A stretch of 64,000 bases of DNA from the NCBI GenBank assembly GCA_947499005.1, contig CANMML010000005.1, positions 1-64,000 on the forward strand. Reading direction: 5' to 3'. The translations under genes were made by a program, and so were the position numbers. The notes under the pieces were generated by a model. It made no database searches, was not told where the DNA came from, and worked only from the letters and a program-made list of their open reading frames with translations. Of this stretch, positions 3,906-22,057 are shown piece by piece (position 1 is the stretch's first letter; each line of letters begins with the position of its first letter). The stretch comes from an uncultured Aquimarina sp. Its GTDB lineage: Bacteria > Bacteroidota > Bacteroidia > Flavobacteriales > Flavobacteriaceae.

Positions 3906-3985
3906 TGTTTTTTTTGTCAATGGATGCATAAAAACTACTTTCGTCACACTAAGTGATTTTATCTTACGTTAGGGAAGTAGCTTCT

Positions 3986-6900: not shown

Positions 6901-7441
6901 AACTGGCCAACAAGCATCTTCTATCAAAAGTCACCAACACAATTTTTCTCATAAAATAAAAGAAAGCTGGTTATTAGAACTTGAAAGTCAATATTCTAAA
7001 AACGGAAGTGATTTTGAAAGCTTTGCTGAACGAAATTTTAATATTACCAATAAGCGAACAGCCCCTAAGGTCTCTTATCTATTTTCTAAGCAGACTAGTC
7101 TAGGCCTTAGTTATGAGTTTCAAGAAAAAAACAATAACGCAGGGGACGAGCAATTAAGTAATCAAACCTTAAACCTAGAATTTAAAATCGCACAAAAACA
7201 AAAAAGTGCTATCAATGTAACGGCGAGTTATATTAACAATAAATTTTCTGGAAATGCATTTACCCCTGTAGGGTTTCAATTATTGGAAGGCCTACAATCT
7301 GGAAAAAATTATACCTGGGCTGTACTAGCTCAAAAAAAGATTACCAAATTTCTAGAACTCAATTTAGATTATCGCGGAAGAAAATCGGAAAGTTCCAATA
7401 CGATACACACGGGAAGTGTTCAAATAAGAGCTTTCTTTTAA
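3986..7441 (+). CDS. Large predicted outer-membrane beta-barrel protein, SprA-like
   Basis: A 1151-residue protein starting at the ATG at 3986, which is directly followed by a signal peptide (MRPLYIFIFYCLCFQVGFSQ); an upstream in-frame GTG at 3953 would bury it. The region around residues 125-220 (GSISRGITIGNNQNSVVDSE, LDLQISGKLSDKITIRASMQ) strongly resembles the repeated barrel units of SprA, the type IX secretion translocon. The protein is much shorter than SprA and is not SprA itself. A conserved acidic patch, TWIDYNENGVQEFEEFELS, looks like a calcium-binding loop. The C-terminus alternates polar and apolar residues and ends in FF, as outer-membrane barrels do. Its function is unknown. It ends 11 bp from the convergent DUF4136 gene. 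Confidence 0.75.
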   Translation: MRPLYIFIFYCLCFQVGFSQSDPPTLFSFQKFAVKDTLSIDFNNIQKQSIVIKEKTEKLLDSSLYTIDVANNLIHFKKSEISIDSLTIEYLKYPDFLTKSYSYLDERLIFNSRKKNRYQLKPSNANRVNQIFSGLNTNGSISRGITIGNNQNSVVDSELDLQISGKLSDKITIRASMQDSNIPIQSDGFSQSLDEFDQIFIELEAPSWKVRAGDIQISEQESVFGSFTKKLQGLSINTKFEGVKNTTEAFISGALVRGIFNQSNFTGQEGNQGPYKLVGQNGELFVLIVSGSERVYVNGLLLKRGESNDYVIDYNAGEIRFTPTFPITADMRIAVEYQVSQRNFSRVLGNGGVAVSNDKFQISTFVYTENDLRNQTLQQELSNQQKEVLSIAGDDTNNMIASSAIEETFSEDQILYINRGTDTNPEYEFLDSNEDPGVPVFQVSFSDVGNNQGSYELITRNTDNNDLVVRNTISRIFRFVGQGQGSFEPIVQLQAPTKLQLAVIRAAYTPKANSRFSLEFAASNNDLNLFSSIDDNNNVGAAIQLKATHPIRKVKSNSWNTYFNNSIDYVQKQFRNIEGLYNIEFNRDWNLNTLQSLINQPNQNQLLTASGITIKKDSVGVISFSNSYLNLSEVYSGSRQGVSSNLKFKNWRIEQSTSFLNSDATDEKSNFLRNRSVITYLKNKYWTSAKYTAENNKVENKNTKELNIASQAFNSYEWQGGIGDSTAVFLKLGARYRENDSIQDNRLSRVAKSQTYTLHTRPLNSPQQQLTLFANYRILDRVAINEKENTLTSRVNYQRNFWKGSIDSNTLLEIQNGSVPQQDFTYVEVDAGRGQYTWIDYNENGVQEFEEFELSPFPDQATFVRLLLPRQSFRKTTQNKISQQLNLNFSRWKKDNNPLKKIISHFSDQANLILDRSILSEGNDKIFHLFDNEQEAISLNTSFRNSFFFNRGKQHFSNTYTYNQSEISNAFITGQQASSIKSHQHNFSHKIKESWLLELESQYSKNGSDFESFAERNFNITNKRTAPKVSYLFSKQTSLGLSYEFQEKNNNAGDEQLSNQTLNLEFKIAQKQKSAINVTASYINNKFSGNAFTPVGFQLLEGLQSGKNYTWAVLAQKKITKFLELNLDYRGRKSESSNTIHTGSVQIRAFF

Positions 7442-7452
7442 AATTTAAACAA

Positions 7453-7962
7453 TTACTTTTTAGAAGGAGGATACTTTACCAAAACTTTTGACATAACAAC
7501 ATCGAAAAATGCTTTCCTATTTTCTGGTGTATTTTTCGAATTCTGAACATCATCAATCTCTGCTTGCCAGATTAATTCATCTTTATTCACATCGATAAAA
7601 TCAATATTAAGTAATAGGTGTTGATCTAAAGCTCCCACTGGCAAATTACCTCCAATAACTAAAGGACCGCTACCAATTCCAATACCGATATTCGTATTAT
7701 TCCGTTTTTCGTAACTCTTACTTTTAAAATTTATATAAAATTCTGGATTAACTCCTTTTTCATATCCTTTTATTTGTAAAATACTATCTGTAGCTGCAAG
7801 TAATCTTCGTTCATCCAAAGAGCTAAGGCCTGTTTTTAATGCCGGATAATAATTGTAAATTTTATACTTCCCAAAGTCTACAGTCTCATCATAATCATAA
7901 ACCACCCGAGCCGTATTACATGATACCAACCCCAATAAAACCGTAATAAGTAATAACCTCAT
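7453..7962 (-). CDS. DUF4136 domain lipoprotein
   Basis: A 169-residue predicted lipoprotein. The N-terminus MRLLLITVLLGLVSC is a lipoprotein signal peptide with lipobox LVSC and lipidated Cys15. The rest matches the DUF4136 pattern: VVYDYDETVDFGKYKIYNYY near the start, a middle strand region (GIGIGSGPLVIGGNLPVG) and ELIWQAEIDD towards the end. Such proteins are anchored on the periplasmic face of a membrane and have no known biochemical role. The gene is convergent with the SprA-like gene and divergent from the GH117 gene. Confidence 0.82.
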   Translation of the reverse strand: MRLLLITVLLGLVSCNTARVVYDYDETVDFGKYKIYNYYPALKTGLSSLDERRLLAATDSILQIKGYEKGVNPEFYINFKSKSYEKRNNTNIGIGIGSGPLVIGGNLPVGALDQHLLLNIDFIDVNKDELIWQAEIDDVQNSKNTPENRKAFFDVVMSKVLVKYPPSKK

Positions 7963-8075
7963 AGCCTTAATTTTAAAACAAGATCATCAAAAATTTGTCC
8001 AAAACCTAAATTTAACTTACGATAACGTTTTAGATATTTTTTTTAAAGCTATATTCAGCACCTCAAATAACTATT

Positions 8076-10181
8076 ATGAAATTTATACTCTCATTATTAT
8101 TGGGCTTTGCGTTAGTCCAAATAAATGCACAAGGCCTCAGCTACAGTGGTACTGTTACTGACAAATCAAATAATCAGCCTATTTCTGGAGCGACAGTTAC
8201 CTTAGTTGAAACAAACCAAGTTGTATCTACTAATGGTAGCGGAACATTTTCTATAAATGTATCTTCTAATAGCGCTAGAACACTTCAAATTAATAAGGAA
8301 GGCTATATGTTCGAAGACTTAAGAAACTTAAGTCCTACAGCTAATCAAAATATTGAATTAAGACCAAAAATTAAGAGTGCAGCCACTATACGTTGGGAAA
8401 ATTACCTTGAAAACTGTAATAATTACAACAATCCTAATATACCTAGCGACCCTGTTTGGAATATGAGATGGACTGAACAAAATTTCACAGGAGATTTAGC
8501 ACCTGATACTCGCTTCGTAAGACGAGATCCAACTGCTGTTATCGAACACGATGGTAAATTTCATGTATGGTATACTTTCAAAGTTGCTCAAGAGACTATT
8601 TGGCCTTGGTGGAGCGAACCAAACTTAGACGGTAGCCGCGATGCATTCCCTTGGGATAATGCAGACCTAATGTACGCTACTTCTACTGACGGATTTAACT
8701 GGGAGGAACAAGGCGTAGCAGTTGCTAGAGGGTCAAGAGGGAATTATGACGACCAATCTGTATTTACTCCTGAAATTTTAGCACATGATGGTAAATTCTA
8801 TTTAGTATATCAAACAGTACAGTTTCCATATATAGAAAGAGTGAAAAACACTATTGGTATTGCTGTAGCAGATTCTCCTGCAGGACCATGGACAAAATCA
8901 GCAGAACCAATACTAAGACCTACAGATAATGGTAAGTGGACTGACGGATTTACAAGTCGTTTACGTGCCGATATTCAAGGTGATTTTGATAGCCACAAAG
9001 TACACGATCCTTGTTTACGCTTTTTCAATAATAAATTCTATTTGTACTATAAAGGAGAACGAATGGGAGAACGAAGGTTATGTCCAGATCGTTCTAAAGG
9101 GAATCCTGATGGACAACGAGAGATCCGATGGGGAGTTGCTATAGCCGACAATCCTCTTGGACCTTATGTAAAATCGGAATACAACCCTATTACAACTAGT
9201 GGTCATGAAGTTGCCGTTTGGAATTACAATGGAGGTATTGCTATCATTCAAAAACTTGATGGACCAGAAAGAGGGTCTATACAATTTGCACAAGATGGTA
9301 TCAATTTTGAAATGGTTGGACGTGCCACCAATACTCCTGAAGCACTTGGAATGTTTCGTCCTGAAGAAGAAGGAGATACTCCTCATGATGGAGTTACTTG
9401 GGGTCTTTCACATCATTACAATTGGGCGCAAGCAAGAACTACAAACTTTTTAGCACGATTTGATATTGTTGCTCCCCCTAAACCACCAGAAGAAGTTGAT
9501 CCTCCAACTCCTCAATCTTTGATAATAGAAGTAGAAAATAAAACAGATACAGGAGGTACATTTAATGATGCCACATCTGGTGGCCCTGGATTTGGTGTAA
9601 ATTCTACTACACAAGGAGTCAACTTCGTTAACTCTGGTGATTGGTTTGAGGTACTTGTCGATATTCCTAACACTGAAGAATATAACTTAATCTACAACAT
9701 CAGTACTCCTAGTGATAATGCTCAAGTGCAATTCATAATTGCTGGAGAAGTACTTGCTAGTGATCCAGTGAATAACAATGGTGAATGGGATGCTTATTAC
9801 CTACTAAAACACGAAGATCCTATTTCTTTAACTGCAGGACAACATACTATCCGTATTCTTGCTAGCGGAACTAATGACTGGCAATGGAATATGGAGAAAA
9901 TATACTTAGAACCATTATCCTCTTTATCTGTTAGTTCTTTTTTAGAAAATAGTGATGAGATTAAGGTATATCCTAATCCCTCTAGAGATCAATTAACAAT
10001 TTCTAATCTAAAAAAAGAAGTAGGTTATAAAATATTGAATCTTAATGGAAGTACTATTGAATCGGGTAGTGCATCTCCACAAAATCCAATAATTGTAAGT
10101 CATTTATCACAAGGAGCTTATATTTTAACACTTACAGATAACAGTAATGAATCTTCATCTACAGTTTTTATTAAACAATAA
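8076..10181 (+). CDS. Secreted GH117-family glycosidase with CBM6 and type IX sorting domain
   Basis: A 701-residue secreted enzyme. Domains in order: signal peptide (1-19, ending INAQ); a carboxypeptidase-regulatory-like beta-sandwich (about 20-90); a five-bladed-propeller catalytic domain (about 100-465); a CBM6-like module (about 482-610); and a type IX sorting domain starting KVYPNPSRDQL (about 629-701). The catalytic part has the hallmarks of GH117 (alpha-1,3-linked neoagarooligosaccharide hydrolase type): RRDPTAV (about 149), YDDQSVFTPEI, SHKVHDPCL (about 308) and SGHEVAVW (about 375). The Asp, Asp and His of the first, third and last motifs fit the family's proposed active site. Known members release 3,6-anhydro-L-galactose from agar oligosaccharides; the exact substrate here is inferred. 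No SusC/SusD pair or other agarase is nearby. Confidence 0.88.
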   Translation: MKFILSLLLGFALVQINAQGLSYSGTVTDKSNNQPISGATVTLVETNQVVSTNGSGTFSINVSSNSARTLQINKEGYMFEDLRNLSPTANQNIELRPKIKSAATIRWENYLENCNNYNNPNIPSDPVWNMRWTEQNFTGDLAPDTRFVRRDPTAVIEHDGKFHVWYTFKVAQETIWPWWSEPNLDGSRDAFPWDNADLMYATSTDGFNWEEQGVAVARGSRGNYDDQSVFTPEILAHDGKFYLVYQTVQFPYIERVKNTIGIAVADSPAGPWTKSAEPILRPTDNGKWTDGFTSRLRADIQGDFDSHKVHDPCLRFFNNKFYLYYKGERMGERRLCPDRSKGNPDGQREIRWGVAIADNPLGPYVKSEYNPITTSGHEVAVWNYNGGIAIIQKLDGPERGSIQFAQDGINFEMVGRATNTPEALGMFRPEEEGDTPHDGVTWGLSHHYNWAQARTTNFLARFDIVAPPKPPEEVDPPTPQSLIIEVENKTDTGGTFNDATSGGPGFGVNSTTQGVNFVNSGDWFEVLVDIPNTEEYNLIYNISTPSDNAQVQFIIAGEVLASDPVNNNGEWDAYYLLKHEDPISLTAGQHTIRILASGTNDWQWNMEKIYLEPLSSLSVSSFLENSDEIKVYPNPSRDQLTISNLKKEVGYKILNLNGSTIESGSASPQNPIIVSHLSQGAYILTLTDNSNESSSTVFIKQ

Positions 10182-10202
10182 ACTGTAAGCAATTACTTCA
10201 TA

Positions 10203-10238
10203 AAAAATCCCAAGACTTTTATTAGTCTTGGGATTTTT
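10203..10238. terminator. Bidirectional intrinsic terminator
   Basis: Perfect 15-bp stem (AAAAATCCCAAGACT at 10203-10217 with AGTCTTGGGATTTTT at 10224-10238) and a 6-base loop. There is a T tract on both strands, so it can end both the GH117 transcript and the convergent TerB transcript. Confidence 0.92.
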
Positions 10239-10312
10239 AGTTTAAAGAATAAAAGTTTTAATTATAAAACCCTTCATCTTTCAATACTTCACACTAATTT
10301 ACACTTATGGTA

Positions 10313-10738
10313 TTACTTATTATTTATTAACGTCTTGTAATCTTCAAAAGCTATTTTACCTCCAAAAATATCCGCAGACCTTTTGATTATAGCAGCTGCT
10401 TCCTGAGTATCATATCCTAAGCCAATAGCATATTTATTCACCAATTTTTCTTCACTCTCATCCATGATATTATCAGTATAGATGATCTTAAATAAATCGT
10501 ACAAACGCTCTAAACGCTCAAACTTATTATTAGGAGGGTTTATTGGATAGTGACTTGGAGTAGCTAAAATCTCATCAAACTCTGTATTATCAACATCTAA
10601 TTTTCTAGCTAAGCGCTTTAATAATGCTAATTCGTTTTCGCTAACAGCACCATCAACGGCCGCTAAAGTAACTATTGACGCAAAATGACCAAGATTCTTC
10701 TTATGTTTCCCGCTATCAAATAAATCGTTAAATGACAT
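10313..10738 (-). CDS. TerB-family protein
   Basis: A 141-residue all-helical cytoplasmic protein of the TerB (tellurite-resistance TerB) fold. It has the typical phrase FASIVTLAAVDGAVSENELALL near residues 20-41, with acidic positions that bind metal in some members. A second acidic helix pair (YTDNIMDESEEKLVNKYAIG) follows. Bacteroidota carry many such proteins outside any tellurite locus, and no other ter gene is present, so a tellurite role should not be assumed. It is transcribed from a good TTTG-N21-TATATTTG promoter 22 bp upstream and convergent with the GH117 gene. Confidence 0.8.
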   Translation of the reverse strand: MSFNDLFDSGKHKKNLGHFASIVTLAAVDGAVSENELALLKRLARKLDVDNTEFDEILATPSHYPINPPNNKFERLERLYDLFKIIYTDNIMDESEEKLVNKYAIGLGYDTQEAAAIIKRSADIFGGKIAFEDYKTLINNK

Positions 10739-10759
10739 ATATCTTTCTTTTTAATGACA

Positions 10760-10792
10760 CAAATATACCATAAATGTTTCCTAGCCCCCAAA
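10760..10792 (-). promoter_or_regulatory. Promoter of the TerB-family gene
   Basis: Minus-strand -7 box TATATTTG (10760-10767) and -33 box TTTG (10789-10792) are separated by 21 bp. Both match the Bacteroidota primary-sigma consensus, and the start codon lies 22 bp downstream. Confidence 0.7.
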
Positions 10793-10822
10793 GCAGAAAA
10801 TAACTTATTTCATATACTTATA

Positions 10823-11245
10823 TTATTCTCCAAATAGTGTTAATACCACTCGCCTACTCCCTCCGTAATCTCGGTGTTCACACAAATAAACTCCTTGCCA
10901 AGTTCCCAAATTTAGCCGACCATTAGTAATTGGTATTTGTACAGAAGCTCCCATTAGTGATGCTTTAATATGAGCTGGCATATCATCTGGCCCTTCATAA
11001 GTATGAATGTAATAGGGCGCATTCTCAGGAACCATTACATTCATATGGCTTTCAAAATCGGTACGCACCGTAGGATCTGCATTTTCATTGATGGTCAAAC
11101 TTGCAGAAGTATGTTTAATAAAAACTTGTAATTGTCCCACTTTAATTTGCCTCAATTCATTTAAGGCATTTTCAATCTCCGAAGTAATTAAATGAAACCC
11201 TCTACTTCGTGACTTTAACTGAATTTCTTTTTGATAAAATTTCAT
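10823..11245 (-). CDS. YjbQ/UPF0047 family protein
   Basis: A 140-residue protein of the secondary thiamine-phosphate synthase enzyme (YjbQ, UPF0047) family. Signatures are SRGFHLITSEI near the start, HTSASLTINENADPTVRTDF (about residues 45-64), the His/Asp-bearing EGPDDMPAHIKASLMG (about 85-100), and the C-terminal WQGVYLCEHRDYGGSRRVVL. The family is trimeric and binds metal; weak thiamine-phosphate synthase activity has been reported for some members, but its cellular role is unsettled. The length is normal. A short AGCT/CAGC-word repeat remnant lies immediately upstream of the start codon. Confidence 0.9.
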   Translation of the reverse strand: MKFYQKEIQLKSRSRGFHLITSEIENALNELRQIKVGQLQVFIKHTSASLTINENADPTVRTDFESHMNVMVPENAPYYIHTYEGPDDMPAHIKASLMGASVQIPITNGRLNLGTWQGVYLCEHRDYGGSRRVVLTLFGE

Positions 11246-11290
11246 AGTAAGCTATCTGCTTCCAGCGACAAGCTATCAGCTATATTAATA
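11246..11290. repeat. Solo copy of an AGCT/CAGC-word intergenic repeat
   Basis: The segment contains AAGCTATCTGCTTCCAGCGA followed by CAAGCTATCAGCT, which shares words and order with the arms that frame the four-helix-bundle gene at 61173-61605. Here the repeat occurs without a gene, directly upstream of yjbQ. It may be a remnant or a solo element. Confidence 0.5.
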
Positions 11291-11427
11291 TACGTTTTAT
11301 AAAAAATTTGAGAAGCCTAGCTAGCAATTTAAAGTTTACTGTCTCAATAGTAACACTAATTTAAATGAAACTCGAACCTCAAATTGAATGATTATGTTAG
11401 TTTTGTAGGTTACTAAAATAGTTAAAA

Positions 11428-12240
11428 ATGGATTTATCAAAAGTAAAAATGGTAGTTACCGATATGGATGGAACACTCTTGAATTCCAAACATGAGGTAA
11501 GCGACTTATTTTTCAAACAATTTGAACAATTGAAAGCTAACAATATTCAGTTTGTTGCCGCTAGCGGACGTCAGTACCATAGCATTCTTGATAAATTACA
11601 TTCTATTGAAAAGCACATTACTATAGTAGCTGAAAATGGCGCTTATATTGTAAAAAATGGCGAAGAATTACTGGTAAATGCTATACCTATTAACGCTTTA
11701 GGTAAACTTGTAAACTCTTGCACAAACATACCTGACACCTACATTGTACTTTGCGGAAAACGCAAAGCCTATATTTTACCAAGTCCTGATGTTTTTGAAA
11801 ATACTATTGCTGAATACTATACCGAATATGAAGTAGTCTCAGATTTTAATACCATTCCCGATGATGAATTCTTCAAAGTTGCATTATGCCACTACGGAGG
11901 TTCTGAAGCAAATATCCTGCCTCACCTTTCAGATATTGATGAGCAATGGCAATTAAAAGTTTCTGGAAAAATGTGGATTGATATTTCATTACCTTCATCA
12001 CATAAAGGAAATGCCATAGCACAATTGCAAGAGAAATATAACATTTCTTCTGAAGAAACAATGGCGTTTGGTGATTATAACAACGACTTAGAAATGTTGA
12101 AAAAAGCAAAATTTAGTTTCGCTATGGCAAATGCTCATCCCGATGTAAAACGTATTGCTAATTTCGATACCATTTCTAATGATGATAATGGAGTTGAATA
12201 CATCCTTGAAAAACTATTAAACTCTAAAACAATTAATTAG
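11428..12240 (+). CDS. Cof-type HAD-IIB family hydrolase
   Basis: A 270-residue cytoplasmic phosphatase of the Cof/HAD-IIB group, which usually dephosphorylates sugar phosphates, nucleotides or cofactors. Motif I is TDMDGTLLNS, with nucleophile Asp12 and acid/base Asp14. Motif II is VAASGRQ. The cap domain lies in the middle, motif III is the Lys in SSHKGNAI, and motif IV is GDYNNDLEML (about residues 213-222). All catalytic residues are present. The substrate cannot be predicted. The last 8 bp overlap the 3' end of the convergent hybrid kinase gene. Confidence 0.9.
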   Translation: MDLSKVKMVVTDMDGTLLNSKHEVSDLFFKQFEQLKANNIQFVAASGRQYHSILDKLHSIEKHITIVAENGAYIVKNGEELLVNAIPINALGKLVNSCTNIPDTYIVLCGKRKAYILPSPDVFENTIAEYYTEYEVVSDFNTIPDDEFFKVALCHYGGSEANILPHLSDIDEQWQLKVSGKMWIDISLPSSHKGNAIAQLQEKYNISSEETMAFGDYNNDLEMLKKAKFSFAMANAHPDVKRIANFDTISNDDNGVEYILEKLLNSKTIN

Positions 12241-14425
12241 AACATACACCAAAGCGCTCTTCTAATTTTCTAAATAAATGAGTCGTATTAGCAATCCCAA
12301 CAACAGCCGAAACTTCTTTTTTGGTTGCCATAGGGTTTTCTAATTGAAATGTTCGAGCTTTTTGCAAACGCGCTTCCATAATTAAATCTTTAACATTTTG
12401 ACCTAAAATCGCTTTCGTTTTTCTGTTTAGTGTACTTCTAGACATATTTAAATGAGACGCAATTTCTTCTACGCTTAAAGTATTAGAATCTATATGCTGA
12501 AGAATGAAATCATTTATTTTTCTGTTGAATTTTTCTGCGTAAGCATTTAAACTTTCCCTTTCTTCGGCATCTAATTGATCTCCAAAAGTTTTTACATTAT
12601 TGTATAACTGAAGCGCATTCTTTACTTGTAATTTCAATTCTTCTTCTAAGAATGGCTTATGCAGATAACCATCAATACCCATACGTAGCATATTCAATTT
12701 ACCGTGATTATCCGTACGTGCTGTAAGCACCAAAATCGGTGTATTATAGCCTAGTTTTTTGATTTCACGCACCAACGCTTCTCCATTCATTACAGGCATC
12801 ATATAATCAGTAAGTATCAAGTCGAAAGTTTGACTTTTAATGAGCTCCAACGCCTCCTTCCCATTTTCTGCTTCTACAGTTTCGTAATCCATTAAAACCG
12901 TTTGAATATATTTTCGCATTTGATCGTGATCTTCTACAACTAAAATTCTTGGCTTATTGGTTATGGACTGTTTTTCATTATTAAAAACTAATGCTGAAGG
13001 CAATTTGCTATTTAATAGTACTGCCTTCTCTGCTCTTTGCTCTGTTAATGAATTTATTTTATATCTCCCTTCGGGAATTTGAATACTAAATTTTGTCCAC
13101 TCATTTTCTTTACTCTCTACTCTTATTTTAAAATGATGCGCCTCAACAATACTTTTGGTAAAAGCCAACCCAATACCACTTCCTTCACTTTTAGTAATAT
13201 CATTTTCAACTTGATAAAATCGCTTAAACACATTAGACAATTCAGCACTAGGAATCCCTATACCAGAATCTGTAATACATATTTGAAAACCGTTTTCTAC
13301 AAAGCTTGATTTTAAAACTACACGACCACCTGAAGCTGTAAATTTTAAGGCATTAGTTAAAAGATTATTAATTGCTTTTTGAAATAAATCTACATCGACC
13401 GCAATGACAACTTCATCATCAATCATTTCAAGTACAAAAGCAATATTTTTCTTTTCAAATAAAGGTTTAAAATCAGCTGCCAACTTTTCTAATAATCTAG
13501 CTACCACAACTTCCTGTGTTGAAATGCTAAATTGCTTTTCATCCATTTTACTTAAATCCATAATATCATTAATAATGGATTGCATTTGATGTGTTTGCTC
13601 TTTTATAACTTTTACATTTTCTTGTATTTCTTCTTTACCAGAACCTTCTTTTATTTGCGAAGTGTACCCCTGTATTAACGTTAAAGGTGTGCGTATTTCA
13701 TGCGATAGATTTACAAAGAAGTGAGACTTAAAATCATTTAATTCTCGTAATTCCTTTTCTTGTTTTTCTAATATAACCTTATCCGAAATCACTCGATCTC
13801 GCTCAACCATTAGTAAATCTTCATTCTGCTGATTCAATTTTTTGAAATAATTAAATAACAAATAAATGGCTACAAACAGACTTGTCATTGATGGGTAATC
13901 GATTCTATTCGAATAATCAACAGGATAAATTTCTAGCACATGATATGGTAAGAAGAAACAAAAAACAGCAGTTACTAAAAACATGATGGATATCCACTGA
14001 CGGTCAAAAAGACTTAAACTTAATCCTGGAATTAGAAAAAAATAATACTCCGTATAAATCCCTGGCGAAACTATAATTGATGAACAGTTAAAAACAATAA
14101 GAGCTGTTATCATAAACAACCACTTTGCACTATAATACTTTTCCTTGTAGTTAAGAAAAATGATAAAAAAGAGACTAGATGTTGTAAATACAGTAACTAT
14201 ATGCCCAAAGAACATTCGCTCGAATAAAATCCCCTGGAGACAATCCGTAATTGTGAATAGCGCTGTTAAGTGAATCCAAATTAAGGTGTATATATTGAGA
14301 AGCTTTACTCTTTTATAAGTCTCTGCATTTCCAACAGTAGAAGCTACACCATAGGAAACAATTTTATTATAGAATCCTTTCATAAATGCCAAAGTTATCA
14401 ATTCGATACTATTTCTCACTTCCAT
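12233..14425 (-). CDS. Membrane hybrid histidine kinase / response regulator with AraC-type DNA-binding domain
   Basis: A 730-residue one-protein two-component regulator. Residues about 1-190 contain six or so membrane segments and no large extracytoplasmic sensor. A coiled linker follows, then HisKA with phospho-acceptor His242 in FVNLSHEIRTPL, an HATPase domain (NNLLTNALKF, DSGIGIP, GSGIGLAFTK), a receiver domain (about 490-600) with phospho-Asp540 in LILTDYMMP, and a C-terminal AraC HTH (about 630-730: SVEEIASHLNMSRSTLNRKT). It resembles the hybrid two-component systems of polysaccharide loci but lacks their periplasmic propeller. An alternative start is at 14383. The divergent neighbour is the LamG/beta-helix gene, and the gap holds four 20-bp-spaced repeats that are likely regulator targets. 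Confidence 0.88.
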   Translation of the reverse strand: MEVRNSIELITLAFMKGFYNKIVSYGVASTVGNAETYKRVKLLNIYTLIWIHLTALFTITDCLQGILFERMFFGHIVTVFTTSSLFFIIFLNYKEKYYSAKWLFMITALIVFNCSSIIVSPGIYTEYYFFLIPGLSLSLFDRQWISIMFLVTAVFCFFLPYHVLEIYPVDYSNRIDYPSMTSLFVAIYLLFNYFKKLNQQNEDLLMVERDRVISDKVILEKQEKELRELNDFKSHFFVNLSHEIRTPLTLIQGYTSQIKEGSGKEEIQENVKVIKEQTHQMQSIINDIMDLSKMDEKQFSISTQEVVVARLLEKLAADFKPLFEKKNIAFVLEMIDDEVVIAVDVDLFQKAINNLLTNALKFTASGGRVVLKSSFVENGFQICITDSGIGIPSAELSNVFKRFYQVENDITKSEGSGIGLAFTKSIVEAHHFKIRVESKENEWTKFSIQIPEGRYKINSLTEQRAEKAVLLNSKLPSALVFNNEKQSITNKPRILVVEDHDQMRKYIQTVLMDYETVEAENGKEALELIKSQTFDLILTDYMMPVMNGEALVREIKKLGYNTPILVLTARTDNHGKLNMLRMGIDGYLHKPFLEEELKLQVKNALQLYNNVKTFGDQLDAEERESLNAYAEKFNRKINDFILQHIDSNTLSVEEIASHLNMSRSTLNRKTKAILGQNVKDLIMEARLQKARTFQLENPMATKKEVSAVVGIANTTHLFRKLEERFGVCSN

Positions 14426-14445
14426 TTTATAGCGATCAATTGATA

Positions 14446-14520
14446 TTGATTCAAACCGTCGCTTTTTGATTCAAATCGTCAACAATTGATTCAAATTGTT
14501 ATTTTTTGACTCACTTGATT
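14446..14520. repeat. Four direct repeats with exact 20-bp period (operator-like array)
   Basis: Copies start at 14446 (TTGATTCAAACCGTC), 14466 (TTGATTCAAATCGTC), 14486 (TTGATTCAAATTGTT) and 14506 (TTGACTCACTTGATT, degenerate). The 20-bp step is about two helical turns, so all copies face the same side of the DNA. The array lies between the hybrid kinase/AraC start (21 bp away) and the LamG/beta-helix start (60 bp away). Two perfect palindromes flank it: ATCAATTGAT at 14435-14444 and TTTTGATCGATCAAAA at 14537-14552. It is likely a binding array for the adjacent AraC-type regulator (inference). Confidence 0.75.
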
Positions 14521-14536
14521 TTCAAGTCCAAACTAG

Positions 14537-14552
14537 TTTTGATCGATCAAAA
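14537..14552. promoter_or_regulatory. Perfect 16-bp palindrome upstream of the LamG/beta-helix gene
   Basis: TTTTGATCGATCAAAA is perfectly symmetric and sits 28 bp upstream of the start codon at 14581, just after the 20-bp repeat array. It could be an operator for a dimeric regulator, or an mRNA 5' hairpin. No further evidence distinguishes these. Confidence 0.45.
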
Positions 14553-14580
14553 TAAAAAGAACGACTAAAAATCTTTATTT

Positions 14581-17124
14581 ATGAAAACAAAACTATTTTT
14601 AGCATCATGCCTACTCACTTTAAGTAGTGCTTTTGCTCAATTTCCTTTCAACAATTTAATTGGACAATATGGATTCGACAATGGATCTGTATTGGTAGAT
14701 GGCGCCAATAGCAACAATTTTACACAAACGGGAACTGCATTAACAGAAATTAGTGATCGTTTCGGAGGAACACCTACAAGTGCTATCGATTTAAACGGGG
14801 ATTATTTAACAGCAGGTGATATTAATTTTGGTGGTTCTACCTTAGCTTTTACCATTACTTGGTCTTTTTGGATAAATACAACTACTGACTCAGCTGATAT
14901 AAAAACCATCATTGATGATAGCACACGAAATACAGTTGCTGGATTCGATAGTGATGACTTAGGTTATTATCTATTTTTAAGAACGGGACAAGTAGGTCTT
15001 TCAAGTCGTTACTACGAAGGAAACTTTGTAGTACCTACAAGACCTACAGGGTATGGACATACACACCCTACTAATATTGCAGATGGTGAATGGCATCATG
15101 TTGTAGTTACTTTTAACCCAACATTTATTTCTGGGGTTCAAAGAATGAACTCAACAATATATATTGATGGAGTAGCCAATTCTCGAAGTAGTATAGAAAC
15201 TCCTATTGTAACATCTCCTAACACAAATGGAAATATTACGATCTCCAATTCAAGAAACAATCATCTTCCTGCTGCCAACAGATACATGGATCAAATAGAT
15301 GACATTTTAACTTATAACAGAGTTTTAACACAAGCTGAAGTAAACCAAATAAAAGACTTCAACAACTTTTGCTTTGCTCCATCAAATTCAATATTAGGTA
15401 CTTCTAACATCATGCAAACTAGTGCTGATATCACTGTAGCTGCTAGTACTAATACATATGACATTGCATACCATAAATCTTCTGAGCCTTTTTCGAATGC
15501 TACAATTATTTCAAATGTATCTGGCGGTGCTACAACTAACCTAACAGGTTTAGATGTTTTCACGGATTATGACGTATATATTAGAGAACAATGTGCTGTA
15601 ACTACAGTATGGTCAACTCCCATTACTTTTAGGACTGCTAGAACTCTTGGAACCATTTATGTCGATGCTGATGCTACAGGTAGTAATAATGGAGTCTCAT
15701 GGACTGATGCTTACAATACAGTGTATGAAGCTTTCGAAGTTGCTCAAAACGGAGAAGAAATCTGGATCGCAGAAGGAACATATACTCCCAATCCAAGTCG
15801 TAGAGATGTTGGTTTTCAAATTCAATCAGGTAGAAACATAAGTATGTATGGTGGTTTTGCTGGAACTGAGACTCAATTATCAGATCGTATTTTTGGAACT
15901 AATGAAACTATTTTAAGTGGAGACCTTTCAGGAAATGATGATAACACTATAGCTTTTAACAACGCAACCAGAAATGATAATTCATATCAGATCATTCAAA
16001 TTTACAATGGTACAAATAATGTCGTAATTGACGGTTTAACAATTACTGGTGGACATGCTAATTCATCAGGTACTCAAAAAGACGGAGCAGCTATTTGGAT
16101 AGATGGCTTTGCTGGTAATGTCACTATCAAAAACTGTAAATTAGAAAAAAATGTAGCCCTAAACGGAGGAGGTGCTATTAGAAGAAATATTGACAATACT
16201 GGGACAACATTAACCATAGATCAATGTGTTTTCCAAGATAACTTAGCTAGATGGGCAGGAGGTATTTATGCAGTTGCTGCAGCAGTTAATGGTAATGCAA
16301 CAGTAAATATTTCTAATGTTCTTTTTGCCAGAAATACGGTTACTAATAATGGCAGCTCTATTGGGCTTTCTGCAAGTGCTATTTGGATTAGGGCTAACCA
16401 AACAAATACAACTGTTACTACTAATATTATCAATAATACATTTACAGAAAATAGTAGTAATGGTACAGGCCAATCACTTAACAATTTCACAAGAGCTACA
16501 GTAGCCTTGTCAGAAACAAGCACTGGTAGAACTGTAAATGCAACAGTAGCCAACTGTATTTTCTGGAACAATGCTTCTACAGAAAAGCCAATAACTGGCG
16601 TTTACGAAACGCTCCCTGCCAACTTAAGTATTATCAATTCTACTGCACAAGGAGGTTTCTTTGGTATTCCAACAAGTGTTCAAACCAACACATCAACTAG
16701 CGATCCTCTATTTACAGATGCACCTAATGCCGACTTTACATTATCTATAGGATCTCCTGCCATTGACAATGGAGATAATACCGAAGTCTTAGGCACAGAA
16801 GATTTATCAAACAACGCTCGTATCGCCAATGGAGATGTAGATATGGGATGTTATGAATTTGCTTCGCAACCTACTCTTAGCTATGATCCTATTTATGAAG
16901 ATCACGTATTCCTACTTACTGCATACCCTAACCCTACAAGTGATGAATTATTTATTAAAACCTCAGCTCCTATTTCTAAAGTGGAGATTATAGATCTAAA
17001 TGGCAAAATTCACTTTCAAGGAACTGCCCAATACTTAAAAATAAGCCATCTAGCTTCTGGGATTTATTTTGTAAAAGTATATTCTGATGGAATCATAACT
17101 TCTAAAAGAATCATTAAAGAATAA
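14581..17124 (+). CDS. Secreted LamG / right-handed beta-helix protein with type IX sorting domain
   Basis: An 847-residue secreted or surface protein. Signal peptide 1-19 (MKTKLFLASCLLTLSSAFA). A LamG/concanavalin-like beta-sandwich follows (about 20-260; WSFWINTTTD, GEWHHVVVTFNP, DQIDDILTYNRVLTQAEV). Next is a short fibronectin-III-like stretch (about 270-350), then a right-handed parallel beta-helix (about 360-755; IYVDADATGSNNGVSW, VVIDGLTITGGHA, NCKLEKNVALNGGGAI), and a type IX sorting domain beginning AYPNPTSDEL (about 775-847). No catalytic residues can be assigned. It could bind or act on polysaccharide, or be adhesive. It probably answers to the divergent hybrid regulator. Confidence 0.85.
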   Translation: MKTKLFLASCLLTLSSAFAQFPFNNLIGQYGFDNGSVLVDGANSNNFTQTGTALTEISDRFGGTPTSAIDLNGDYLTAGDINFGGSTLAFTITWSFWINTTTDSADIKTIIDDSTRNTVAGFDSDDLGYYLFLRTGQVGLSSRYYEGNFVVPTRPTGYGHTHPTNIADGEWHHVVVTFNPTFISGVQRMNSTIYIDGVANSRSSIETPIVTSPNTNGNITISNSRNNHLPAANRYMDQIDDILTYNRVLTQAEVNQIKDFNNFCFAPSNSILGTSNIMQTSADITVAASTNTYDIAYHKSSEPFSNATIISNVSGGATTNLTGLDVFTDYDVYIREQCAVTTVWSTPITFRTARTLGTIYVDADATGSNNGVSWTDAYNTVYEAFEVAQNGEEIWIAEGTYTPNPSRRDVGFQIQSGRNISMYGGFAGTETQLSDRIFGTNETILSGDLSGNDDNTIAFNNATRNDNSYQIIQIYNGTNNVVIDGLTITGGHANSSGTQKDGAAIWIDGFAGNVTIKNCKLEKNVALNGGGAIRRNIDNTGTTLTIDQCVFQDNLARWAGGIYAVAAAVNGNATVNISNVLFARNTVTNNGSSIGLSASAIWIRANQTNTTVTTNIINNTFTENSSNGTGQSLNNFTRATVALSETSTGRTVNATVANCIFWNNASTEKPITGVYETLPANLSIINSTAQGGFFGIPTSVQTNTSTSDPLFTDAPNADFTLSIGSPAIDNGDNTEVLGTEDLSNNARIANGDVDMGCYEFASQPTLSYDPIYEDHVFLLTAYPNPTSDELFIKTSAPISKVEIIDLNGKIHFQGTAQYLKISHLASGIYFVKVYSDGIITSKRIIKE

Positions 17125-17176
17125 CCAATTAAAATTCAACTCAAAGACTAAAGATTTTATCAAGTAGTTTGTTGTT

Positions 17177-17213
17177 AATCTCACATTTAAGACTTCGGTT
17201 TTAGTGTGAGATT
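17177..17213 (+). terminator. Intrinsic terminator of the LamG/beta-helix gene
   Basis: Stem AATCTCACA (17177-17185) pairs with TGTGAGATT (17205-17213), with a 19-base loop. A run of T residues follows (TTTTTGTTTT). It lies 53 bp after the stop codon. Confidence 0.8.
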
Positions 17214-17366
17214 TTTTGTTTTAAGAAATACAAAATATTACACTAAAGAATTCTTTTTCAAAAGTGTTACTAAAAAAACTAGCAGTCTATTAAGGCATTA
17301 CAGCAATCTTTAATTAGGTTTACAAAACAATCTAATTTAGAATATAAAAAACTATACCCACATGCT

Positions 17367-17815
17367 ATGATCGTCAAAATTCTTCAAACCACCCTTAGCT
17401 ACGTTTTCTTTTATTAGCAATTATACATTTTTATTGGTCCTCTGGTGGTACTTGGGCTTTAGAAAACACTATACCAACAACAATTAATGAAGAATTTGTC
17501 CTGAACCCGAAGCCTATTGATAGCTTAATTATTGGTATAGGTTTAACCCTAATTAGCCTTCATTATTTAGGCAGATTAAAATCAAATCTTAAAATTGGAG
17601 CTTTAAGATCATCATTTCTAAGCTGGCTCACCCCTATTTTATTACTGATTCGATCTATTGGAGATTTTAAATATGTAGGACTTTTCAAAAGTATAAAGAC
17701 TACCAATTTTGCTTATTATGACACTTTATACTTTACTCCTTTATGCATATTTCTTAGTATAATTGGCTTCTTTGTTATCTTAAAATCTAAAAAGAATATA
17801 AAAAAAAAGCTCTAA
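17367..17815 (+). pseudogene. DUF3995 family membrane protein gene, broken by a single-base frameshift
   Basis: The frame from ATG 17367 reads MIVKILQTTLSYVFFY and then a TAG. One frame over, the reading continues LAIIHFYWSSGGTWALEN, then VLNPKPIDSLIIGIGLTLIS, GDFKYVGLFKSIKTTNFAYY, PLCIFLSIIGFFVILKSKK, and stops at 17813-17815. Together this is a full small four-helix membrane protein of the DUF3995 type (about 149 residues). Adding one T to the run at 17409-17412 restores a continuous frame. The second half has no ATG, so it would not be made alone. This is either a recent pseudogene, a phase-variable homopolymer or a sequencing error. A terminator overlaps its stop codon. Confidence 0.8.
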
Positions 17816-17837
17816 TCCTATTGAATTAGAGCTTTTT
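17804..17837. terminator. Bidirectional terminator between the DUF3995 gene and infB
   Basis: Perfect 13-bp stem AAAAAGCTCTAAT (17804-17816) with ATTAGAGCTTTTT (17825-17837), an 8-base loop and T tracts on both strands. It includes the stop codon of the DUF3995 frame and lies 21 bp beyond the infB stop. Confidence 0.9.
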
Positions 17838-17858
17838 GCTTTTATATAATTTCGAAAA

Positions 17859-20762
17859 CTACTTCAATGTCTTCTTAACAGCAACTTCTTGGAAGGCTTC
17901 TATAATATCACCTTCTTTGATGTCATTGTAGTTCTTCACTTGCATACCACAATCGTATCCTTTCGCTACTTCCTTAACATCATCTTTAAAGCGTTTCAAT
18001 GCTGCTAATTCTCCAGTGTAAATTACTACACTTTCACGGATTAAGCGGATTTGGTTATTTCTAAAGATTTTACCTGTAAGTACCATACAACCTGCAATAG
18101 TTCCAATTTTCGAGATCTTGAATGTCTGACGGATTTCTGCAGTACCCGTAATTTCCTCTTTCATCTCTGGTGATAACATACCTTCCATTGCATCTTTCAG
18201 GTCGTTAATAGCATCATAGATGATTGAGTATGTACGGATATCGATTTCTTCCTTATCAGCTACAGCTCTAGCATTTCCAGCAGGTCTTACGTTAAATCCG
18301 ATAATAATCGCATCGGAAGCCGAAGCTAACAACACATCACTTTCGGTAATTGCACCAACTGCTTTATGAATGATATTTACATGAATTTCGTCTGTAGATA
18401 ATTTCTGGAATGAATCTGTTAATGCTTCAACCGAACCATCCACATCTCCTTTCAGGATAATGTTTAATTCTTTAAAGTCTCCAAGGGCAATACGACGACC
18501 AATTTCATCAAGTGTAATATGACGTTGTGTACGCACCGATTGCTCACGATGTAACTGAGAACGCTTAGAAGCAATATCCTTAGCTTCTCTTTCATCTTCC
18601 ATTACATTAAACTTATCACCTGCTTGTGGTGCTCCGTCTAAACCTAGCACGGATACTGGAGTTGATGGACCTGCTTCTTCAACACGTTTACCGCGCTCAT
18701 CGTGCATTGCCTTCACCTTTCCACTATTCTTACCAGCAAGTAAATAATCTCCTACACGCAATGTACCTGATTGTACTAATACTGTAGAAACATATCCACG
18801 ACCTTTATCTAAGAATGCTTCAACAACAGTACCTGTAGCAGAACGATCTGGATTTGCTTTTAATTCTAAAACCTCAGCTTCTAATAATACTTTTTCTAAA
18901 AGTTCATTAACTCCTAAACCTGTCTTAGCCGAAATATCATGAGACTGAATAGAACCTCCCCACTCTTCAACAAGTAAGTTCATGGCAGCTAATTTCGTCT
19001 TAATATTATCAGGATTAGCCGTTGGCTTATCAATCTTGTTTATTGCGAAAATAATAGGAACTCCTGCAGCTTGAGCATGACTAATTGCTTCTTTTGTTTG
19101 CGGCATGATATCATCATCAGCTGCAATTACAATAATAGCAATATCTGTTACTTGAGCTCCACGAGCACGCATTGCAGTAAAGGCTTCGTGACCCGGTGTA
19201 TCTAAGAAAGCAATTTTTTGACCACCTTCTAACTGTACTCCATAAGCACCGATATGCTGTGTAATTCCTCCACTTTCACCTGCGATTACATTTTCTTGAC
19301 GGATATGATCTAATAACGAAGTTTTACCATGATCTACGTGACCCATTACAGTAACAATTGGAGCACGGAATGATAAATCTTCTGGTGCATCTTCAACCTC
19401 TTCGATTGCTTGTTCTAAATCGGCAGTTACAAAATCAACAGTATAACCAAATTCATCTGCAACGATACTTAAAGTCTCTGCATCCAAACGTTGGTTCATA
19501 GTTACCATCATCCCTAATGACATACATGCAGAAATCACTTGTGTAACTCCAACATCCATCATCGTAGCAACTTCACTAACCGTAACAAATTCTGTTACTT
19601 TTAATACTTTGCTTTCCGCTTCTTGTGCAGCTAAATCGCTTTCAGATTTTTGACGGTGTTGATCCCTCTTATCACGACGATATTTAGCTCCTTTTTTACC
19701 TTTAGAAGATTTACCCTGTAATTTTTCTAAAGTTTCGCGTACTTGTCTTTGTACTTCTTCCTCAGTAGGCTCTTCTTTTACGACAGGAGTTCTACCTCTT
19801 CCACCGCGATTTCCTCCTCGGTTAGCACTAGTATTGTTTCTGTTTCCTCCTCGGTTATTTCCTCCTCTATTATTAGGATTAGTACCTTGGTTTCCTCCAG
19901 GTTTACTTATTCTTTTACGCTTCTTCTTGTCAGCACCTTGTTGCTTGTCGTCTTTCTTCTTCTCTGGCTTCTTAAATTTACTTAAGTCAATTTTTTGACC
20001 TGTAAAGTTTGGCCCGTCAAGCTTCTTATATTGTGTCTCTACCTTTTCAGATTCTACAACACCATCAGCTGTTTCTGTCTTTTGCACATTGACAGGAGTT
20101 TCGACTTTCGGCTCAGATTTCACAGGAGCAGCAGCTTCTTTACTTGACTCTTCCTGTTTCTTTTCGGCTTTTGGAGCAGAACTTTCTTTCTTAGCAGGCT
20201 CCTCTTTAATAGGTGCCGTACCTTTAATTTTAAGCTCTTGACGTTTTGGGCGGTTAGAAATCACCTTTGATTCAACAGGCTCCTGGGCAGTAGGGGCTTC
20301 TTGAACTTTTTCAGGCGCTTTTTCTTGAACCTCTTTAGTGGCTTCAACAGCAGGTGCAGGAGTTTCTTCCACTTGCTCTTCTTCTTTAGTTGGAGGAGCT
20401 GGCTTCCCCTTCTCTAAATCAATTTTACCAACTTGCTTTGGCCCAGACAGCTTTGTACGACTGCGAAGCACATCTTGTTCGTGCTCCTTCTTTCTTTTCT
20501 CAGCTTGCTCTGTTTCAATTTGCTTGCGAATAGCTTCCTTCTCTTTTCGAGTTTCTTCTCTTCGCTCTTTTGAAGCAGCAAGTTTCGTCTTATCTGTCTG
20601 AAATTCTTCAGTCAGTAAGTGATAAATTTGCTGAGAAATTTTTGTTGTTGGTCTTGCTTCAATCTCGTGACCTTTGGAATTCAAGAATTCCACTGCCCTA
20701 TCCAACGAGATATTAAATTCGCGCAATACCTTGTTTAATCTTATGTTATTTGTTCCAGCCAT
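17859..20762 (-). CDS. infB: Translation initiation factor IF-2
   Basis: A 967-residue GTPase that delivers initiator fMet-tRNA to the 30S subunit. The N-terminal IF2_N motif ([20 protein letters not shown]) is followed by a long charged linker rich in Lys, Glu, Ala and Pro (about 55-260). A Gly/Asn/Arg-rich stretch (about 280-325, [14 protein letters not shown]) comes next, then a second IF2_N motif ([16 protein letters not shown]). The G domain has G1 GHVDHGKTS (about 473), G2 [11 protein letters not shown]3 DTPGHEA, G4 NKID and G5 SAKTG. The C-terminal domains that contact the tRNA are complete. It is the last gene of the rimP-nusA-infB operon, 62 bp after nusA. Confidence 0.98.
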
Positions 20763-20824
20763 AAATGCCTTGTAGTATTCTACTTATATTCTCAATGAGC
20801 TTAATTGCTCTTTCGCTATACTCT

Positions 20825-22057
20825 TTAGTCTTCAAACTCCGCTCTTAATACGCGAAGTACGTCTTCTACTGTTTCTGCTTCAAGATCTGTACGTTTTACT
20901 AAATCCTGAGCATCATGCTCTAACACACTTTTGGCCGTGTCTAAACCTATTTTACTAAACTCTGCAATAATCCAACCTTCGATTTCATCTGAGAATTCGG
21001 TCAATTCTACATCCTCTTCTACACCTTCTCTGAAAACATCAATTTCATAACCTGTTAGCATTCCTGCTAAACGTATGTTATGTCCTCCTCTACCAATAGC
21101 CTTAGAAACTTCTTCTGGCTTTAACATTACCTCTGCTCTTTTCGATTCTTCATCGATCTTTACAGAAGTAACTCTTGCAGGACTTAATGATCTAGTGATA
21201 TATAACTGTAAGTTATTTGTAAAATTAATTACATCGATGTTCTCATTCCCTAATTCACGAACAATACCGTGTATACGAGAACCTTTTACACCAACACAAG
21301 CTCCTACAGGATCAATACGATCATCATACGAATCTACGGCAACTTTTGCTTTATCTCCAGGAACACGAACTACATTCTTAATTGTAATAAGACCATCAAA
21401 TACCTCTGGTATTTCTTGTTCAAACAATTTCTCTAAGAATAAAGGCGCTGTTCTTGACATAATAATAGAAGGCTTTGTTCCTTTCAACTCAACACTTTCT
21501 ATAACACCTCTTACATTCTCTCCTTTTCTAAAGAAATCGGAAGGAATTTGTTTGTCCTTTGGCAAGATTACTTCATTACCATCATCATCTAACAAAATTA
21601 CAGCTCTATGACGAATGTGATGTACCTCTGCTGTGTAAATTTCACCTTCTAATTCTTTAAACTGCTTGTAAAGATTTGTATTATCATGCTCATGAATCTT
21701 TGCAATTAAGTTTTGACGTAACGCTAAAATAGCACGACGACCTAAATCTATCAACTTAACTTCTTCAGATACATCTTCACCTACTTCAAAATCTGGTTCA
21801 ATTTTTCTTGCTTCAGTTAATGCTATCTCTTGATTTTCATCTTCTACTTCTCCATCATCAACTACCACTCGATTTCTCCAAATCTCTAAATCTCCTTTAT
21901 CTGGATTTACAATTATATCAAAGTTATCGTCAGATCCGTATTTTTTCTTCAACGCACTTCTAAATGTCTCTTCCAAAATAGACATCAACGTTACACGGTC
22001 AATAGACTTATCATCTTTGAATTCCGAAAACGACTCAATCAGCGCTAGATTTTCCAT
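20825..22057 (-). CDS. nusA: Transcription termination/antitermination factor NusA
   Basis: A 410-residue RNA-polymerase-binding elongation factor. The N-terminal polymerase-binding domain (about 1-125) is followed by an S1 domain (about 135-200; EGEIYTAEVHHIRHRAVIL). Two KH domains come next (about 205-345), with GVKGSRIHGIVRELGNENID and the GRGGHNIRLAG loop. A single C-terminal helix-hairpin-like segment follows (FSKIGLDTAKSVLEHDAQDL). The two long acidic repeats of the E. coli protein are absent, which is usual outside gammaproteobacteria. The gene starts 8 bp after rimP ends. Confidence 0.97.
   Translation of the reverse strand: MENLALIESFSEFKDDKSIDRVTLMSILEETFRSALKKKYGSDDNFDIIVNPDKGDLEIWRNRVVVDDGEVEDENQEIALTEARKIEPDFEVGEDVSEEVKLIDLGRRAILALRQNLIAKIHEHDNTNLYKQFKELEGEIYTAEVHHIRHRAVILLDDDGNEVILPKDKQIPSDFFRKGENVRGVIESVELKGTKPSIIMSRTAPLFLEKLFEQEIPEVFDGLITIKNVVRVPGDKAKVAVDSYDDRIDPVGACVGVKGSRIHGIVRELGNENIDVINFTNNLQLYITRSLSPARVTSVKIDEESKRAEVMLKPEEVSKAIGRGGHNIRLAGMLTGYEIDVFREGVEEDVELTEFSDEIEGWIIAEFSKIGLDTAKSVLEHDAQDLVKRTDLEAETVEDVLRVLRAEFED

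Follow-up and report, generated by a model that had tools for sequence, protein, structure and literature searches.

A 20-bp-step repeat array as the likely operator of a membrane-anchored kinase/AraC-type hybrid regulator in Aquimarina

We find that a direct-repeat array in the genome of an uncultured Aquimarina sp. is most likely the operator of the AraC-type hybrid regulator encoded next to it, as the first-pass annotation of this DNA had proposed. Judging from sequence comparison, the regulator probably binds the array and activates the divergently transcribed gene of a single surface protein as a class II AraC-type activator. Arrays in relatives stand at a fixed distance from a predicted promoter, and their spacing follows the phylogeny of the regulator. 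The coordinates of all features in the analysed stretch of 64,000 nucleotides (the window) are collected in Table 1.

The four direct repeats with a 20-bp period had been noticed from the letters alone, and they are readily recovered by independent means: the array has the highest Tandem Repeats Finder score of 34 rows in the window (66, runner-up 58), and its score of 24 of 30 at a lag of 20 or 21 was reached in none of 300 shuffles, which averaged 14.2. Copies 1 to 3 consist of TTGATTCAAA followed by CCGTC, TCGTC or TTGTT, and these first 15 bases contain three variable positions, all of them pyrimidine changes. The final five bases of each 20-bp unit vary among the three copies (GCTTT, AACAA and ATTTT), and copy 4, TTGACTCACTTGATTTTCAA, is degenerate; the earlier description of the copies is confirmed. 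Two palindromes had been reported to flank the array. Both are exact, one being ATCAATTGAT (14435-14444), but the other, at 14537-14552, overlaps the predicted -7 element and transcription start rather than flanking the operator. Rfam found two tRNAs in the window and nothing else.

Table 1. Features of the regulator, the repeat array and the candidate controlled gene (window coordinates)
Feature	Position	Strand	Basis or remark
Hybrid regulator, 730 aa	12233..14425	-	Multi-helix membrane domain, HisKA + HATPase_c, receiver, AraC-type HTH
AraC-type DNA-binding domain, residues 641-727	12245..12505	-	Pfam; proposed reader of the array
Predicted membrane sensor domain, residues 1-198	13832..14425	-	Modelled helices
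Putative operator copy 1	14446..14465	+	TTGATTCAAACCGTCGCTTT
Putative operator copy 2	14466..14485	+	TTGATTCAAATCGTCAACAA
Putative operator copy 3	14486..14505	+	TTGATTCAAATTGTTATTTT
Putative operator copy 4, degenerate, promoter-proximal	14506..14525	+	Spans about -40 to -21 relative to the predicted start
Predicted -7 element TAGTTTTG	14534..14541	+	Fits TAnnTTTG, departs from refined TAHHTTTG
Perfect palindrome TTTTGATCGATCAAAA	14537..14552		Overlaps -7 element and predicted start
Predicted transcription start	14546	+	From the -7 position and F. johnsoniae spacing; leader 35 nt
Candidate target gene, 847 aa: exported LamG protein ending in a T9SS type A sorting domain	14581..17124	+	Pfam/NCBIfam

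Within its own 4.16-Mb genome the array was located at one site only by scans with exact and looser patterns, in keeping with the earlier expectation that the repeats would not recur at many unrelated loci. The sequence TTGATTCAAAYYGTY occurs four times, three times in the array and once at C11, where it lies within a 556-codon open frame (L004 1-1680). A looser two-copy pattern allowing up to three mismatches gave 36 + 31 matches including the array, and its reversed control gave 25 + 30, so we regard the matches elsewhere in the genome as background. Near matches considered as further targets were rejected where they fell inside open frames (C2, C3 and C16), and another (C12) sits in the gap between two opposite-strand genes that belong to a different system. 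The looser pattern is also met three times in identical sequence at exact 276-bp steps (G000:C7:156697-157276), the sign of a long tandem repeat.

The regulator combines HisKA (residues 233-296), HATPase_c (344-452), Response_reg (494-601) and HTH_AraC and HTH_18 (641-727) matches in Pfam, and its phosphorylation motifs SHEIRTP and TDYMMP are intact. Open reading frames and Pfam thus agree with the reported pair of divergent genes, one for a kinase/receiver/AraC hybrid and one for a LamG protein with a T9SS tail. Residues 1-198 have no Pfam match at E<=1, and the membrane domain has no match among PDB folds at E<=0.001. The model of this N-terminal part (pLDDT 91.3) contains six long helices following an N-terminal helix, with short loops between them, and supports the earlier suggestion that the kinase lacks a periplasmic sensor domain.

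A profile of the membrane part is present in 10 of 397 family genomes and 13 of 66 genus genomes, and in 4 of 395 and 16 of 395 genomes in the order and phylum samples, respectively. Many of these matches are shorter kinases without an AraC domain, and the open frames that carry the membrane part in the phylum sample outside the family are 426-614 aa long. From the profile matches, six contigs of a GTDB scan and four regions of one more genus we drew the 25 loci analysed here, whose frames run to about 680-740 aa. A search of the open-licence PMC literature found no paper on this regulator family. In two other loci (L171 5271-9122 and L172 500-6297), the membrane domain occurs on runs of three LytS-like kinases beside a response-regulator gene.

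Whether the repeats recur in relatives had been set beforehand as a check, and the answer depends on how strictly they are sought. The exact array pattern did not turn up in the remaining 90 of the 91 genomes searched, which on its own would have suggested a private repeat and, by the refutation criterion of the first-pass annotation, told against the proposal, but diverged TTGA-type arrays are present upstream of related regulators and speak against that reading. We described them by a signature consisting of TTGA (at most one mismatch) 28 bp before TAnnTTTG (at most one mismatch), with a second TTGA 20 or 21 bp further and no more than two mismatches in total. Reading away from the regulator, this signature, whose 28-bp rule was spotted by eye before being counted on the same sequences, occurs in 17 of 23 upstream regions; reading toward the regulator it occurs in 0 of 23. 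Some of the 17 are closely related to one another (three are from Tenacibaculum, five from a single genus), so that they amount to about 11 independent groups. At the other offsets from 18 to 44 it appears in 0-4 regions (away) or 0-3 (toward), and in 0-5% of shuffles. The 23 regions leave out L157 and L040, near-identical to L175 and L039, respectively, and contain three later additions (L244-L246) that are orthologues of loci already included. The upstream boundaries of L157, L167 and L175 were chosen by hand because their start codons are ambiguous.

Six regions fail the signature (L163, L162, L037, L169, L247 and L164). In L163 the 28-bp distance is kept and the -7 element is exact, but the middle copy has decayed, and neither of two other short intergenic stretches of that locus contains an array; L162 has a 21-bp array without a matching -7 element, and L037 a pair about 19 bp apart. 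A first count on 18 regions had found the 28-bp distance in 11 regions, 49 bp (one more 21-bp step) in 8 and 32 bp in 6, and every other distance from 10 to 60 bp in at most 4. Periodicity scores agree with the two steps, the mean best-lag score over 21 upstream regions being 17.0 at lag 20 and 16.2 at lag 21, and 13.6-15.1 at the other lags from 12 to 40. Locus by locus the signal is uneven: in only 10 of the 21 rows did 9 or fewer of 300 shuffles reach the score, and the weak rows include L165, L166 and L037. The signature also turns up by chance, as 9 of its 15 matches in seven extended loci lie at sites other than regulator-side and cassette promoters. Across the whole window, the TTGA/-7 pair at 28 bp with one mismatch allowed stays at background: 14 of 1415 sites have it, and the average for an offset is 10.6.

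The position of the array relative to the promoter suggests how it may work. In F. johnsoniae, the -7 element is described as spanning -12 to -5, with the start 4-5 nt downstream and a mean leader of 33 nt, and its consensus TAnnTTTG was refined to TAHHTTTG, G being nearly missing at -10 and -9 (PMC6847099). Applying this spacing to the window yields the predicted start and leader of Table 1 and places the proximal copy, which begins 28 bp before the -7 element, over -40 to -21. TAGTTTTG has a G at -10, and across the family 2 of 14 -7 elements fit TAHHTTTG and 12 depart from it, as would be expected of activator-dependent promoters. At 6 of 14 family promoters a palindrome with arms of at least 4 overlaps the -7 element; among 374 background sites the share is 6.1%.

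From the array, its promoter geometry and conservation, the clade-specific spacing and the protein domains, all read from the DNA itself, we infer binding, activation and a trigger as follows. A signal sensed by the membrane domain would prompt the kinase to phosphorylate the receiver in the same chain and so release the AraC domain. The regulator, as dimers that may act in pairs, would then bind the four TTGA-type copies, which lie about two helix turns apart on one face of the DNA. The copy at about -40 to -21 would set the regulator against RNA polymerase at the weak -7 element, and the single LamG/T9SS surface-protein gene would be switched on. The same binding could instead serve repression, with the proximal copy blocking polymerase until phosphorylation relieves the block. 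That copy does sit where polymerase must bind, and the palindromes just described cover the -7 element and start. We nevertheless consider repression unlikely: the copies extend to about -100, beyond the need of a simple block, the mostly off-consensus -7 elements suit activation, and predicted relatives of the hybrid two-component system (HTCS) type are described as activating polysaccharide-utilisation loci (PULs) (PMC3878776, PMC11253607).

The step between copies ties the arrays to the regulator proteins. Of the 24 rows in a regulator tree, 7 form clade A (support 100/100), whose six array-bearing rows, the window among them, all have a 20-bp step, and 12 form clade B (support 92/95), whose eleven labelled rows have a 21-bp step. 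The clade of the AraC-type regulator thus predicts its operator spacing, and these data support the view that repeat spacing follows the regulator protein tree. Steps are irregular in L174 (21/20/21), L167 (21/20/19) and L158 (with a 31-bp gap), and L164, which clusters with canonical regulators, has no array. The TTGA half of the repeat is common to both clades and the downstream half differs, approximating CAAATNG in clade A and ATTWGTGA in clade B; only the downstream half is informative here because the alignment was anchored on TTGA. With spacing and DNA-binding domain changing together, the two clades lend themselves, as a natural experiment, to studying how AraC-type proteins determine the step of their operators.

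This correlation also bears on whether another protein reads the array, the adjacency of the hybrid kinase being incidental. The genome encodes further AraC-type hybrid regulators that might do so, and yet arrays recur in many genera upstream of this regulator family, on the far side, their spacing tracks the regulator tree, and the signature is missing upstream of all 4 canonical hybrid regulators examined in this genome, all of which makes such a coincidence very improbable. Functionless tandem duplication by slippage, a known source of short AT-rich repeats and compatible with an exact sequence missing from the other 90 of 91 genomes, is hardly credible for independently diverged arrays that keep the same place and a fixed distance to the -7 element, and whose copies 1-3 in the window conserve their first 15 bases and vary in the last five.

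The candidate target of the regulator acting as an activator is a single gene. Its product carries a T9SS type A C-terminal sorting domain (PF18962 and TIGR04183), and no same-strand ORF of at least 100 aa appears in the ORF list between it and the opposite-strand infB. The earlier label of a beta-helix protein is supported only indirectly: Pfam gives no beta-helix match and the fold prediction is of low confidence (pLDDT 43), but the protein has a choice-of-anchor Q match and is similar over its full length to a relative in which DUF5123 matches below threshold. None of 10 proteins scanned around the array (3953-22057) matched susC/susD-like proteins. About 4 kb from the array, the window also encodes a GH43 + CBM6 protein with a T9SS tail (8076-10181, +), for which we found no link to the array.

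In relatives the regulator and array are conserved and the controlled gene is not, so the regulator/array/LamG trio suggested by the first-pass annotation persists only as a regulator/array pair. Judged by eye from a signal-peptide-like start, the divergent gene looks exported in 14 of 25 loci, five of these with a T9SS tail by Pfam; in two more (L042 and L160) it is present and not clearly exported, and in the remaining nine no such gene is adjacent. Among the proteins that face the arrays are leucine-rich-repeat (LRR) lipoproteins and DUF285/cadherin, FG-GAP, PKD/CHU_C, Kelch and LamG proteins. LamG itself recurs in G492 and, as a single domain, in G166. The LamG protein with a T9SS tail at L158 is 37% identical to the window protein over 518 aa, and a LamG plus LRR protein at L163, where a 152-aa gene lies between regulator and array, is 38% identical over the LamG part. 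At L042 (4803-5324, -), from T. holothuriorum, the cargo side starts with a small ORF and a phage tail collar-domain protein, after which comes an open frame of 1594 codons that is truncated where the locus ends.

In five loci of one genus (L165, L166 and L244-L246) no obvious gene for an exported protein lies in front of the array. The promoter there faces about 140-270 nt that by eye end in a terminator-like hairpin followed by T, a stretch that could be a small RNA or encode a short zinc-ribbon-like peptide; Rfam found no match in the five loci.

Other loci multiply the target. In G027, three lipoprotein genes lie beside one regulator, each with the signature before its start codon, and all share a 27-residue leader, behind which two have an FN3-like part in common and the third is unrelated. 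In G492 (L159), three genes, the third cut by the contig end, begin with the same 36-43-residue leader and have no further match to each other, and the arrays before the second and third look decayed. A 1.1-kb mature-gene stretch just behind a G492 leader is 87% identical to a gene of a second locus that has another leader, and between G027 and G002 the regulators are 95% identical and the cargo 61%. These patterns may reflect an undescribed modular surface-display system of Flavobacteriaceae, which we propose tentatively, in which a regulator drives one to three cassettes of array, weak promoter and common leader, and the mature repeat protein is exchangeable by recombination at the leader. 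Mature parts exchangeable behind one leader would allow new surface proteins to be joined to the same control, and common-leader cassettes of this kind point to surface-protein diversification under constant control.

Among known systems, the closest are the HTCS of Bacteroides. Their predicted motifs in B. thetaiotaomicron are described as pairs of directly repeated sites, on average 21 bp apart, and the proteins as having a periplasmic sensor domain (PMC3878776). The window regulator shares with them the kinase, receiver and AraC-type DNA-binding domain in one polypeptide, by Pfam and with a colinear alignment among relatives, and direct repeats about two turns apart, at 20 bp in the window and 20 or 21 in relatives; in both cases motif clusters follow the DNA-binding-domain tree, as described for HTCS (PMC3878776, PMC11253607). 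It differs in having four copies at 20 bp rather than pairs averaging 21 bp, and in lacking the large periplasmic sensor by which canonical HTCS are described, for which reason we call it HTCS-like. Whereas 25 of 36 B. thetaiotaomicron HTCS are described as adjoining susC/susD-like genes, the divergent gene here encodes a lone LamG/T9SS protein and not a polysaccharide-utilisation locus; if our reading is correct, hybrid two-component regulation reaches beyond polysaccharide uptake to single surface proteins. A further difference concerns the S/CHIP motif of the receiver alpha3-beta4 loop, described for most but not all HTCS and tied to inhibition between receiver and DNA-binding domain (PMC11253607). 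None of the 18 family rows has it, a count made without L157 and the outlier L164, and of the 4 canonical regulators in this genome 2 keep it intact; L175 keeps HIP and L164 has SHIP. Control of the receiver may therefore differ from that in Bacteroides HTCS.

LytS-type kinases with LytTR regulators (L171-L173 and L176, named by eye from sequence) carry this membrane domain at their N terminus and are recognised by the same profile, but are about 400-440 aa long and lack the receiver and AraC domain, their response regulator being a separate gene. Class II AraC/XylS activators bind direct repeats about 20-21 bp apart, with the proximal site overlapping the upstream element of the promoter. Our arrays resemble theirs in repeat spacing and in a proximal site at a fixed promoter distance (28 bp, 17 of 23 regions), and if the resemblance reflects function, the rule of TTGA repeats with a 20/21-bp step, 28 bp from TAnnTTTG, would predict the targets of this membrane-sensor family. 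Unlike those activators, the AraC domain here ends a membrane-anchored hybrid kinase, and the promoter is of the Bacteroidota -7 type.
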